Below are positions 38,633 through 44,394 of a stretch of DNA of 64,000 nt, in pieces. Below the pieces are notes generated by a model. It saw only the letters and a list, made by a program, of their open reading frames with translations, did no database searches and was not told the DNA's origin. The position numbers were made by a program, and so were the translations under genes. The DNA is from Actinomycetospora cinnamomea (lineage in GTDB: Bacteria; Actinomycetota; Actinomycetes; Mycobacteriales; Pseudonocardiaceae): positions 62,001 through 126,000 of the forward strand of contig NZ_QEKW01000007.1 in the NCBI RefSeq assembly GCF_003096675.1, written 5' to 3'. Positions within the stretch are counted from its first letter, which is position 1. Every line of letters starts with the position of its first letter.

Positions 38633-38839
38633 CCCACCCCTCCACCGACTCGTCGCGTCGCGCCGCCGTGCGGCCCGTCCGTCCTGCGCCCGATGCCGTC
38701 ACGTCCCGGCCCGCAGATCGACGGACCTGGCGCCGGGGAAGGTGCGCCAGGGCCGTCGCCCTGCGGACCGGGGCCTCACGGCACCCGGCCGGGCGTCCTC
38801 GCGGGACGCCCCGTGTTCGTGTTGTCGGTGCGGTCGGCG

Positions 38840-40254: not shown

Positions 40255-40499
40255 GGTTCTCCTCCGGCACCGGAATGGAAGTACGCCCGACCAGGGGAGG
40301 TCCGGCGGGCATCGTCGTGATGTCCCACGACCATCGTACGAGTCCGTCGTCGGTCCCACTACCCGGACCGGCGTGTTGCGGTCGCGATCATCCGTTCGGC
40401 TCCGGTCGCGAAGCTGCACGAGGAGCACCCCGCTGCGCTCGGTGATCGCGACGCGCCGGATCGGCGGCCTCGGCGGGGGACCCTGCGCGGGCCGCATCG

Positions 40500-40844
40500 C
40501 GATCACCCAGCAGGGTCGCCGGAGGGAGCTCCTGCGACGCCGGAGCGGTGTCACGCCTGGTCAGCGGCATGTCAGCGGCATGCTCGGCGTGGGACCACCC
40601 GTGATCGGGCTCGCCGGGGAGGATCTGTTCGGGCGCGCGGCCGGCCGACCCGAGGTCCTCGACCCGCACACCGACCAGCCGCACCGGCGGGTCTCCCACC
40701 GAGCGCGTCGTGGAGATCGGCCGCGGTGGCGTGCGGGTCCCGGGCGAGGTCGGCGAGCGCGGCAGGGTGCGCGTGCGTGTGATCGTGGTGAAGTTCGGCG
40801 GACCTGATCTCGAGCGCCACTGCTCGCGCATCCCGTGGTGGCAC
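40500..40844 (-). pseudogene. dinB: Remnant of a DNA polymerase IV gene (dinB), 3' part only
   Basis: The minus strand encodes pieces of the DinB little-finger region in alternating frames. These are ARAVALEIRSA (40829-40797), FTTITRTRTLP (40792-40760, shifted), ALADLARDPHATAADLHDALG (40760-40698, shifted back) and GDPPVRLVGVRVEDLG followed by EPDHGWSHAEHAAD (from 40696, shifted again). Together they read like the end of an actinobacterial DinB, but at least three frameshifts break it. The polymerase domain is gone, because the next gene's stop lies 38 bp upstream. In related genomes dinB often sits next to the DUF3040 gene, which supports decay in place. Confidence 0.65.
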
Positions 40845-40881
40845 GGCATCCGCGGTGCGGCCGTCGAGGCGCGAAGGCGGC

Positions 40882-41734: not shown

Positions 41735-42574
41735 GTGCACGTCACGGGGGTCCTCAGCCTCAAGGGCGGGGTCGGCAAGACGACCGTCGTGCTGGGCCTG
41801 GCCGGGTCCGCCCTGCGGGTCGGCCTGCGCACGCTCGTGGTGGATCTCGACCCGCAGGGCAACGCGACCACCGCGCTGGAGCCGGGGCCCACCGAGACGA
41901 CGATCGCCCAGGCGATGGAGCGGCCCTCGGCGGCGCTCCTGGCCTCGTCGATCGCCCAGAGCGCCTGGGGCGAGGAGGTCGACGTCCTCGTCGGCTCCGA
42001 GGACGTCGAGCGCCACAACCACCCGGACCCCAACTCCCAGCGCCTGGGTCGGCTCGCGCGCCTGCTGGCCGCCCTCCCCCGCGACGACGAGGCCGCGACG
42101 GCGACGGGCCTGGCGAAGTACGACCTCGTGCTGATCGACTGCCCGCCCTCGCTCGGCCAGCTGACCCGCTCGGCGCTGGTGGCCGTCGACCGGGCCGTGC
42201 TGGTGACCGAACCGACGATCTTCGCCGTGTCCGGCGTGCAGCGGGCCTTCGAGGCGGTGCAGGCCGAGCGCGAGCACAACCCCGACCTGCAGCCCCTCGG
42301 TGTGCTCATCAACCGCTACCGCACGCGCTCCGCCGAGCACGAGTTCCGGGTCGGCGAGCTGCGGGAGCTCTTCGGCCCCCTCGTGCTCTCCGGCGTCCTG
42401 CCCGACCGCAGCGCGATCCAGCAGGCCCAGGGCGCCGGCGTGCCCATCCAGCGGTGGGACACCCCGGGCGCCCGGGAGATCTCCGGCCAGTTCGACTCCC
42501 TGCTCGGGCGGATCGTGCGCTCGCGCGCCGCCCGCTCGCACCGCGCCCGGGCCCGCCAGGTGCCCGACGCCTGA
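41735..42574 (+). CDS. ParA/MinD-family ATPase
   Basis: This 279-residue deviant-Walker ATPase has KGGVGKTT at 10-17, VVDLDPQGNATTAL (Walker A' region) and DLVLIDCPPSLGQLTRSAL (Walker B). ParA proteins segregate or position cargo on the nucleoid. No parB or parS site accompanies it, so this is an orphan of the type found beside the dcw cluster, not the chromosomal soj. The start is GTG 41735 with a -10 directly upstream. It converges on the HEPN gene (stop to stop 22 bp). Confidence 0.88.
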   Translation: MHVTGVLSLKGGVGKTTVVLGLAGSALRVGLRTLVVDLDPQGNATTALEPGPTETTIAQAMERPSAALLASSIAQSAWGEEVDVLVGSEDVERHNHPDPNSQRLGRLARLLAALPRDDEAATATGLAKYDLVLIDCPPSLGQLTRSALVAVDRAVLVTEPTIFAVSGVQRAFEAVQAEREHNPDLQPLGVLINRYRTRSAEHEFRVGELRELFGPLVLSGVLPDRSAIQQAQGAGVPIQRWDTPGAREISGQFDSLLGRIVRSRAARSHRARARQVPDA

Positions 42575-42596: not shown

Positions 42597-43148
42597 TCAG
42601 CGCCCCCGCCCCGCCACCGTCCGGGTGACCAGGGCGAGGAACAGGTCGGCCTGACGGACCATGTCGTCGGCGTCGCGCTGGGACACCCTGCCCCGCACTC
42701 CGGCCTCGACTGCGGACCGTGTCGCCGAGTGCGCCGCGAAGAACGCCGCCCACTCGCCGTACTCGGGCGCCACGGACGCGAGCAGGGTCCACGCGTCGGT
42801 GGGGCGGGGCGAGCGCTTGGAGCGGGCGCGCAGCGCGAGCACGGCCGCCGCCGCCCGCAGCGCCCCGAGGTGCGCGGAGCGGAAACGCTCGGCCGGGTCG
42901 CCCTCGGCCTGCGCGGCCCGCAGCTCGTCGCGGGCGGCACCGAGCAGCTGCACCACCGTGCGCGAGGGCGGCGGGGCGGGCGGGGCCGGGGGTCCGGCTG
43001 CACGCGCGGTGGCCCCGCGCGTGGCCGACCGCGTCCGGGCGGCGGGCACCGCGGGCCGCGCGGCGGAGGACCCGCGGCCGGGGTCGGCGTCGGACGGGTC
43101 GGTCGGCGTGGTGTCGAACAGGCCGGGCATGGCGAGGGCGCTGGTCAC
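42597..43148 (-). CDS. SAV_6107-type HEPN domain protein
   Basis: This 183-residue protein has a variable Pro/Ala-rich head (1-70) and an alpha-helical domain from VVQLLGAARDELRAAQAEGDPAERFRSAHLGALRAAAAVLALR. It matches the SAV_6107 HEPN family. The classical HEPN RNase motif (RxxxxH) is represented only loosely (RFRSAH). HEPN proteins are often ribonucleases or nucleotide-binding partners. The GTG at 43148 has GAGGAG upstream. It lies 34 nt downstream of the DUF6504-like gene, so it is probably co-transcribed from the SOS-box promoter region. Confidence 0.75.
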   Translation of the reverse strand: MTSALAMPGLFDTTPTDPSDADPGRGSSAARPAVPAARTRSATRGATARAAGPPAPPAPPPSRTVVQLLGAARDELRAAQAEGDPAERFRSAHLGALRAAAAVLALRARSKRSPRPTDAWTLLASVAPEYGEWAAFFAAHSATRSAVEAGVRGRVSQRDADDMVRQADLFLALVTRTVAGRGR

Positions 43149-43182
43149 GGGAGATCTCCTCGGGTTCGCGTGTCGGGCGGGG

Positions 43183-43476
43183 TCAGGCGCCGGCCCAGCG
43201 CAGGTCCCACACGCCGGGCCCCGAGCGCATGCGCAGGACGAACTCGCCCGGCGGCAGGTGTGGCTCGTCGGACCGGCGCGCGAGGACACGCCAGCAGCGG
43301 CAGCGGTCGCCCCCCACCGGCATGGCCGACAGGAACGGCCACCGGGACTCCTCGATCCAGCGCTCGCGCACCTCGGTGACCAGGTAGTGACTGTCACGCC
43401 GGTTGGGCCGGCGATGGAACTCGACGGGGTCCCCGTCCGCGCAGCGGACCTGGACCGGCGAGGGACTGCGCACCAC
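43183..43476 (-). CDS. Small DUF6504-like protein, candidate SOS gene
   Basis: This 97-residue basic protein has PVEFHRRPNRRDSHYLVTEVRERWIEESRWPF in the middle and GEFVLRMRSGPGVWDLRWAG at the end, a pattern I associate with DUF6504, a domain seen near or fused to Y-family polymerases in actinobacteria. The function is unknown. The first of two GTG codons (43476) is chosen because GGAGGA lies 6 nt upstream. A perfect LexA palindrome lies 130 bp upstream with a strong hairpin between. The HEPN gene follows 34 nt downstream. Confidence 0.65.
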   Translation of the reverse strand: MVRSPSPVQVRCADGDPVEFHRRPNRRDSHYLVTEVRERWIEESRWPFLSAMPVGGDRCRCWRVLARRSDEPHLPPGEFVLRMRSGPGVWDLRWAGA

Positions 43477-43562
43477 GATGCGTCCTCCACGGGCGGGCTC
43501 GTGCTCCTCGACCCGTGGCCCGGGCCGAGCGGATGCCTGCCACCGTGGGGAGCCGGCGGCGT

Positions 43563-43603
43563 GCCCGGGCGGCGGGACGCTTCCCCCGTCCCGCCGCCCG
43601 GGC
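43563..43603. repeat. 17-bp perfect hairpin in the DUF6504 leader
   Basis: GCCCGGGCGGCGGGACG (43563-43579) pairs exactly with 43587-43603 around a 7-nt loop. It lies between the SOS box and the DUF6504-like start and would sit at the 5' end of that transcript. It could be a terminator/attenuator for transcripts in either direction. Confidence 0.7.
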
Positions 43604-43605
43604 CA

Positions 43606-43621
43606 TCGAACAGGTGTTCGA
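43606..43621. promoter_or_regulatory. LexA (SOS) box
   Basis: TCGAACAGGTGTTCGA is a perfect match to the actinobacterial SOS consensus TCGAAC-N4-GTTCGA. On the minus strand TTGACG (43653-43658) and TTCACT (43630-43635), 17 bp apart, form a candidate promoter whose start point would fall next to this box. LexA would then block the leftward DUF6504-HEPN transcript. The rightward GNAT gene starts 138 bp away and is less likely to be the target. Confidence 0.75.
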
Positions 43622-43758
43622 TGCGGACCAGTGAACCCGCTCGCCGCGGGGCCGTCAAGTCGGTCCGGGACGGACACGCGAGGAACCCACCGGAGGACCA
43701 CACCGGCGGGCGGGCGGAGCCGGGTGGACCGCTCGGCGCGACGTGGTGTGATGAGCGT

Positions 43759-44394
43759 GTGACCGCCGCGCCCGCCCGCGCCTCCGTCGTCGACCTGACG
43801 CCCGAGGACCTCGCGGTGCGGCTCGACGAGGCGCTGACCGTCTACGTCCGCGCGATGGGCTACCCGGCGGGCACGGTGCGGCAGCGCCGCCCGATGTGGG
43901 TGGAGCACTCGCGGCGCGCGGGCTGGCACGCGGTCGGCGCGTTCGGCCCCGACCGGTCGCTGTGGGGCATCGCCTACGGCTACCCGGGCGCGCGCGGCCA
44001 GTGGTGGTTCGAGGAGGTGCGCCGTGGTCTGCTCGCGGCCGGCGACCACGGCCGCGAGCTGGCGGGGACCGTGCTCGAGGACTACTTCGAGCTCACCGAG
44101 CTGCACGTGCGCCCGGACGTCCAGGGCGACGGCATCGGCGAGGCCCTCGCGCGGCGGCTGCTGACCCGCCCCACTGACCGCCACGTCCTGCTCTCGACCC
44201 CGGAGGCCGAGCACCCGACACGCGCCTGGTCGCTGTATCGGCGCCTGGGCTTCCGCGACCTCCTGCGCCACCACCGTTTCACCAGCGACCCGCGGCCCTT
44301 CGCCGTCCTCGGCCGCGAGCTCCCGCTCGACCCGCCGCACACCCCGGTCCCGGCCCCGGCCCGCGGGGGCGCCGTGCCGTGGGGCCGCACCTGA
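43759..44394 (+). CDS. GNAT acetyltransferase (Rv2170-like)
   Basis: This 211-residue N-acetyltransferase has the acetyl-CoA-binding strand-helix LTELHVRPDVQGDGIGEALARRLL (motif A, Q-x-x-G-x-G/A) and the C-terminal ARAWSLYRRLGFRD-like motif B (TRAWSLYRRLGFRD). Rv2170 of M. tuberculosis sits in the same place, next to lppM, and has been described as a protein lysine acetyltransferase; the substrate here is unknown. The start is GTG 43759. A -10-like TGTGAT sits 6 nt upstream. Confidence 0.85.
   Translation: MTAAPARASVVDLTPEDLAVRLDEALTVYVRAMGYPAGTVRQRRPMWVEHSRRAGWHAVGAFGPDRSLWGIAYGYPGARGQWWFEEVRRGLLAAGDHGRELAGTVLEDYFELTELHVRPDVQGDGIGEALARRLLTRPTDRHVLLSTPEAEHPTRAWSLYRRLGFRDLLRHHRFTSDPRPFAVLGRELPLDPPHTPVPAPARGGAVPWGRT

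Follow-up and report, generated by a model that had tools for sequence, protein, structure and literature searches.

The locus lies on the minus strand of the window, the term used here for the whole 64-kb stretch of the Actinomycetospora cinnamomea genome that was analysed. It begins with a putative promoter (43630–43658), read from the sequence as a -35 hexamer TTGACG (43658–43653) and a -10 hexamer TTCACT (43635–43630) separated by a 17-nt spacer, followed by a LexA (SOS) box, TCGAACACCTGTTCGA (43606–43621), which is a perfect match to TCGAACNNNNGTTCGA. Two leader hairpins come next. The first, P1 (43563–43603), has arms at 43603–43587 and 43579–43563 that form 17 perfect pairs in a covarying stem closed by the loop GGGGAAG (43586–43580), and the second, P2 (43540–43559; CCGCCG-GCUCCCCA-CGGUGG), lies inside a conserved block at 43560–43534. 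The ribosome-binding region CCGTGGAGGA (43483–43492), which pairs with the loop and 3′ arm of P2 in the predicted fold, precedes a 97-aa gene with a GTG start (43183–43476) whose product, itself below Pfam detection, is assigned to DUF6504 by profile-profile comparison only. After a gap of 34 nt follows a gene for a 183-aa protein (42597–43148) belonging to Pfam HEPN_SAV_6107 (PF18726; E 2.6e-33; 114.9 bits against a curated cut-off of 27.2). The box, the hexamers, the 17-bp hairpin and both genes were all found where the initial annotation had placed them.

Adjoining the HEPN gene and facing it is a plus-strand gene for a ParA-like ATPase (41735–42571), which, being on the opposite strand, is outside the HEPN operon. 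The 3′ part of a dinB-type gene was located on the minus strand at approximately 40388–40873 by alignment to the loci of relatives (L279–L281). Genomes, contigs, loci, genera and families are referred to below by G, C, L, g and f numbers where they have to be told apart.

Conservation of the LexA box and the promoter

The perfect form of the box, CGAACNNNNGTTCG, occurs once in the window, at 43606–43621, and perfect 16-mers number nine in the 5.97-Mb genome, where 53 sites with at most one mismatch compare with 9 for a reversed control pattern. Other perfect boxes adjoin genes for DUF3072, DUF222 and radical SAM proteins, and on contig C10 a further one adjoins a gene with no Pfam assignment that has an IMS match downstream of it. 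We take these box-adjoining genes to resemble the mycobacterial SOS regulon (13E12, Rv2578c and imuA′-imuB). The radical SAM gene next to a perfect box (L022, contig C3 near 198636) is interrupted by an insert that weakly resembles the intein splicing domain (E 0.0045).

A consensus sigma-70 scan of the locus found no promoter, and the promoter call therefore rests on the conservation of the -35 and -10 hexamers in 16 of 17 Actinomycetospora loci (L001–L017), L007 being the exception. The incomplete 310-contig assembly G007 has kept the leader and not the promoter. The box itself is perfect in 18 of 19 loci (L001–L019), with variation in its 4-base spacer.

The HEPN gene was found in 107 of 120 relatives, and the region upstream of it was compared in 106 loci of the order, G004 being left out because it is at a contig edge. 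A perfect box is present in 92 of these, a box with one mismatch in 12 and one with two mismatches in the remaining 2 (G007 and G109). In 46 genomes of the same family as A. cinnamomea, outside genera g1 and g5, the box lies only 184–412 nt before the HEPN domain. HEPN matches above the cut-off are found in 16 of 246 genomes of a sample of the phylum, and in three of these, from families f19 and f20, a LexA box precedes DUF6504, which in turn precedes HEPN; the box is perfect in two of them and has a single mismatch in the third. The proposal that the operon is under LexA is strongly backed by this pattern at the level of sequence. Conservation of the box holds through the order, 104 of 106 loci having no more than one mismatch in it, and does not extend to the Streptomyces orthologues, which have no perfect box.

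In a Streptomyces-rich set of named HEPN loci (the best 80 of 560), none of the Streptomyces-type loci has a perfect LexA box and one, L222, has a box with one mismatch; seven HEPN loci of family f18 have at least 2 mismatches. A different, putatively damage-responsive element is found in this set. The known RecA-NDp motif was used as the consensus for the scans, and its half TTGTCRGTG is perfect in 60 of the 68 loci of the Streptomyces-rich set that were used for this count, and in none of 62 control stretches. Allowing up to two mismatches, the complete motif was detected in 25 of 106 Mycobacteriales promoters and in approximately 1% of control windows. In the Streptomyces-type promoters (L211–L278) TTGTCAGTG is kept, and the -10 element mostly begins with CA and not TA. 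The element given for PafBC in PMC8151990 is TGTCGG-N10-TA-N3-T. TTGTCRGTG-N8-TANNNT is missing from the window promoter, in which the best match has 6 mismatches. Conservation of the box and of RecA-NDp promoters suggests that the HEPN gene is damage-controlled in most lineages sampled, and this control appears to be exerted via LexA, PafBC or both. It seems that LexA maintains the damage control of both genes in one group, and that a PafBC-type promoter does so in Streptomyces.

A PF18726 gene was also recovered from Corynebacterium glutamicum in a control search, and from the gene order it may be cg2381. PMC5055667 assigns the latter, whose function is unknown, to the LexA regulon and tabulates a rise with ciprofloxacin (3.86).

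A leader RNA with two hairpins

The hairpin reported in the initial annotation is real and conserved, and proved to be half of a pair with complementary loops. P1, scored as present when at least 9 of 12 pairs form, was detected in 75 of 106 leaders from 7 families, and P2 in 56 leaders from 6 families. P1 is missing in 31 leaders, including every examined leader of f2, f3, f4 and f16, and 19 of the 75 leaders with P1 have no P2. Because P1 was collected by the exact loop GGGGAAG, and P2 by a search for CTTCC[CT]C or either of two variants in which 4 or more of 6 pairs had to form, the constancy of both loops in these counts is by construction. The counts that are free of a preset motif are the 7-mer rankings alone. 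GGGGAAG is the commonest 7-mer, occurring in 78 of 104 leaders, or 62 of 88 when the genus Actinomycetospora is removed. In the sequence that follows P1, the 7-mer seen most often is its exact complement, CTTCCCC (22 of 46 genera); CTTCC[CT]C is found there in 24 of 46 genera against 0.66 in shuffles.

The stems vary in a manner that retains pairing. Over the 12-bp stem of P1 in the 78 leaders with GGGGAAG, a set that includes three weak stems (G041, G066 and G116) that are not in the count of 75, 92.3% of cells are paired, compared with 68% (maximum 73%) when the arms are swapped between leaders, and at least one double change was found at every pair. P1 and P2 were examined together in 42 of the 56 cores, after removal of 13 same-genus rows and of L131 (G058), in which P2 is weak (4 of 6 pairs). 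In this alignment, 91.3% of cells are paired against a shuffled mean of 76.4% and 37–57% in slid controls, and double changes are seen in 106 cells, where shuffling gives 29.4 on average. The possibility that the palindrome acts as DNA was rejected, as G-U accounts for 84 and A-C for 9 of the 936 cells of P1; the excess of G-U points to an RNA of the minus strand. A leader peptide was also considered and rejected: a 70-aa frame starts inside the LexA box, and few aligned relatives have an ATG there.

The leader of the window folds 4.0 sd better than dinucleotide shuffles. A covariance model of the leader, run with the stricter filters of Infernal, gave a single match per genome in 51 of the 120 genomes, and 49 of these matches are, by their coordinates, upstream of HEPN. 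The other two (G039 and G052; loci L197 and L198) lie behind a LexA box where HEPN is truncated or missing. Rfam searches of the leader region at E up to 10 returned five matches, all far below threshold, and those of ten related loci returned none. Over the whole window, the only match reaching the gathering score was the mraW RNA motif (RF01746; 55.3 bits; 38693–38783, minus strand). As nothing on the P1/P2 leader was found in the open literature searched or in Rfam, it is apparently an undescribed two-hairpin RNA that has been widely conserved. Three loci (L103, L085 and L084, in G102, G110 and G130) have a further element, GGUGCG..UCGACCCYCGYG, placed after the box and ahead of P1 or of the gene.

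Two simpler roles for P1 can be weighed against these features. The initial annotation suggested that the hairpin attenuates basal read-through from the LexA promoter, and a very stable hairpin close downstream of the start would suit that role. However, no terminator-like site was detected on either strand in 43100–43760 and there is no U-tract; attenuation also leaves the second, complementary hairpin and the conserved block unexplained. Since P1 has a partner hairpin whose loop complements its own, and since no terminator-like site is present, this suggestion is left unsupported and is considered very unlikely, and a role in translation fits better. Alternatively, the leader may be no more than a 5′ structure that stabilises the mRNA, with no regulatory switch. 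A strong 5′ hairpin alone would explain the conserved stem, but a loop that recurs over 7 families and a second loop complementary to it would be needless for stability alone, making this reading unlikely.

The DUF6504-like and HEPN proteins and their polymerase neighbours

The 97-aa protein had no match in a Pfam search at E up to 1 and so does not reach the PF20114 cut-off. However, hhalign against ten proteins that all match PF20114 gave a probability of 94.2% (E 1.2e-7), and the position of the gene between the LexA box and HEPN corresponds to that in other families, a PF20114 gene being the immediate upstream neighbour of HEPN in genomes from f5, f9, f10, f13, f14 and f16. The assignment to DUF6504 is based on this match together with the gene position. 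Relatives of the 97-aa protein itself were found in 19 of 150 genomes (17 of Actinomycetospora and 2 of genus g5), and the search of those 150 genomes found none in genera other than g1 and g5. In Pseudonocardia eucalypti (L209), at a locus with a LexA box and no P1/P2 leader, a DUF6504-like gene was spotted by eye. PF20114 matches are present in 89 of the 246 genomes of the phylum sample and in the Caulobacter vibrioides control. Scanning the genome contigs for DUF6504 and searching PDB sequences returned nothing useful, and a plasmid search with the DUF6504 protein gave one weak match, in Nonomuraea.

Polymerase genes are frequent neighbours. Among the 30 best-scoring DUF6504 loci from those 89 genomes, one of which (L302) is at a contig edge, a LexA box with no more than one mismatch is found in the 320 nt upstream in 26, and a dnaE-type gene in the 1.5 kb downstream in 23. 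Of six DUF6504 loci examined over a longer stretch, four have a PolY gene further on. The gene order in f19 and f20 is box, DUF6504, HEPN, dnaE. Partial neighbouring proteins from three of these loci were matched by models for DNA polymerase III alpha and for error-prone polymerase, and it was only with the longer piece of L300 that the latter scored best. The match to the error-prone model and the LexA box are the grounds on which the neighbouring polymerases are called DnaE2-like here, and this label should be read as provisional. Thirty HEPN loci of the order were compared. HEPN is followed on its own strand by a dnaE-type gene in all three loci of f10 and all four of f16, single loci of f9 and f7 contain a PolY gene, and neither polymerase is found within 1.5 kb of HEPN in 21, including all 11 loci of the family to which A. 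cinnamomea belongs. A dnaE gene is also near HEPN in four non-Streptomyces loci (L213, L216, L260 and L261).

A dinB remnant had been noted 2–3 kb from the operon in the window. Its place aligns with a dinB-type (IMS) gene that is free of stops downstream in G002, G004 and G005 (3 of 7 genus genomes), and about 0.8 kb of the stretch present in these relatives is missing near 40873, indicating that dinB is broken in the window. The remnant itself, however, has no family match. The association of relatives of both genes with dnaE or dinB-type genes in several lineages supports the earlier description of the pair as a DNA-damage-induced module and sharpens it. The DUF6504-like and HEPN proteins would on this evidence be accessory factors of DnaE2/DinB-type polymerases, and the two unnamed genes become candidate members of the accessory set of these polymerases in actinobacteria.

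For the DUF6504-like protein, a more specific role is suggested by ImuA-ImuB-DnaE2 cassettes and their variants, which include a stand-alone ImuB-C in operons with PolY and/or DnaE2 (PMC6511836). These cassettes are often LexA-linked and combine a small predicted beta protein with PolY and/or DnaE2, as the DUF6504 relatives upstream of dnaE-type genes with a LexA box do. The window differs in having an additional HEPN gene, no adjacent polymerase gene and a broken dinB. The DUF6504-like protein is likely to be related to the C-terminal module of ImuB as a stand-alone form; comparison with the C-terminus of the ImuB of the genus itself gave a probability of 3.3% (E 0.013), and a link in sequence was not found by this route.

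The initial annotation suggested that the HEPN protein might be an RNase, and this reading is not supported. The HEPN survey (PMC3710099) enters SAV_6107 as "No" under "Conservation of Rx4-6H"; according to it, the catalytic motif is located where helix 3 ends. An R-x4-H close to the start of the HEPN domain is present in 63 of 106 sequences, with Y in place of H in 22 and another residue or no match to the pattern in 21. Judged from these sequences, the protein is probably non-catalytic, and the dnaE or dinB-type genes adjoining DUF6504 and HEPN point to translesion synthesis and not to an RNase. An SOS-induced, toxin-like module, with a catalytic or RNA-binding HEPN protein and DUF6504 as its partner, was also considered. 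It draws on the HEPN fold, on the mention in the same survey (PMC3710099) that absence of the motif does not preclude toxicity of a HEPN protein and that HEPN toxins paired with ParA/Soj-like ATPases are described elsewhere, a ParA-like gene adjoining HEPN here, and on the resemblance of damage-plus-leader control to that of the SOS toxin TisB (PMC8145889). TisB/IstR-1 of Escherichia coli likewise combines SOS transcription with translational control, but there is no membrane peptide here and the genes and the structure are different. The strand of the ParA-like gene, the entry for SAV_6107 together with the Y in 22 sequences, and the polymerases that are the neighbours in other lineages all argue against a toxin, which is regarded as quite improbable.

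A word search for HEPN in the text of the mutasome paper (PMC6511836) gave zero mentions, and no mention of DUF6504 was found in the open literature searched. What is already in print is the stand-alone ImuB-C with DnaE2 and LexA control of cg2381, a gene that may be the HEPN orthologue. With no record of the leader in the literature or Rfam, nor of DUF6504 or of HEPN in the mutasome, the leader RNA and the link of HEPN to SOS mutagenesis are what is new here, within the reach of these searches.

A possible translational switch in the leader

In the minimum-energy fold for the window, P1 is kept and UCCCCACGG of P2 is predicted to pair with CCGUGGAGGA at the ribosome-binding site, and the alignment of the genus predicts the same pairing. 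In 30 leaders the P2 arm pairs with its own ribosome-binding site at -14.9 kcal/mol, compared with -13.8 with swapped sites, and 6 of 2000 shuffles were as good; this comparison used 30 of 44 rows (2 of the 16 same-genus rows) and is uncontrolled for relatedness. The fit is poor in some leaders, and both sides are C- or G-rich by nature. The P2 arm is the best partner of the ribosome-binding site within the leader in 34 of 56, a count for which start codons were called crudely and are wrong for some leaders. As P2 is complementary to both the P1 loop and the ribosome-binding site, its loop has two competing partners.

The preferred mechanism for the leader, which is unproven, is a translational switch. 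LexA on the box at the transcription start would block transcription until DNA damage removes it. The mRNA would then begin with the two-hairpin leader, in which the P1 loop GGGGAAG and the P2 loop CUUCCCC are complementary. In the off-state the loop and 3′ arm of P2 would pair with the ribosome-binding site, and in the on-state the P1 loop would capture the P2 loop in a kissing interaction, allowing for production of the DUF6504-like relative of the ImuB C-terminal module, which is thought to contact DnaE2, and of the likely non-catalytic HEPN protein. The broader reading, that the operon responds to DNA damage and belongs to the SOS-mutagenesis (translesion synthesis) set, with control at two levels, by LexA and by a translational switch in the leader, and with products that are accessory factors, is considered moderately probable. 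The narrower proposal that a kissing-loop leader, with P1 in seven actinobacterial families and both hairpins in six, gates the translation of SOS-mutagenesis genes behind a LexA promoter is put forward tentatively. Because the loops do not vary, hardly any covariation speaks for the kissing itself. Tandem hairpins with conserved kissing loops upstream of the ribosome-binding site are known from the guanidine-II (mini-ykkC) riboswitch, from which the window leader differs in its loops (GGGGAAG/CUUCCCC), in having no Rfam match at threshold and in having no known ligand.

Kissing cannot be the whole function of P1, since 19 leaders have P1 and no P2, and P1 must act otherwise in those leaders. 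P1 may instead be a binding site for a protein, perhaps a product of the operon in an autoregulatory circuit, or for a small RNA that acts in trans and contains CUUCCCC, with P2 a lineage-specific addition. The presence of the stem in those 19 leaders, in which the same loop was the search key, and the wider distribution of P1 (75 of 106) than of P2 (56) are consistent with this. However, the complement in the P2 loop is far above chance, and two genomes keep the leader where HEPN is truncated or gone, which argues against autoregulation by HEPN unless the loss is recent. A binding site is accordingly a possible but somewhat doubtful explanation.

LexA and protein turnover are regarded as the main controls of SOS mutagenesis. 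With a structured leader conserved on them, SOS-mutagenesis genes would have additional control at the level of RNA, and the translational switch, if it operates, would be a second checkpoint on SOS mutagenesis, possibly one that senses a ligand or a trans partner. In family f10, this leader stands at the front of an operon in which a dnaE-type gene follows.
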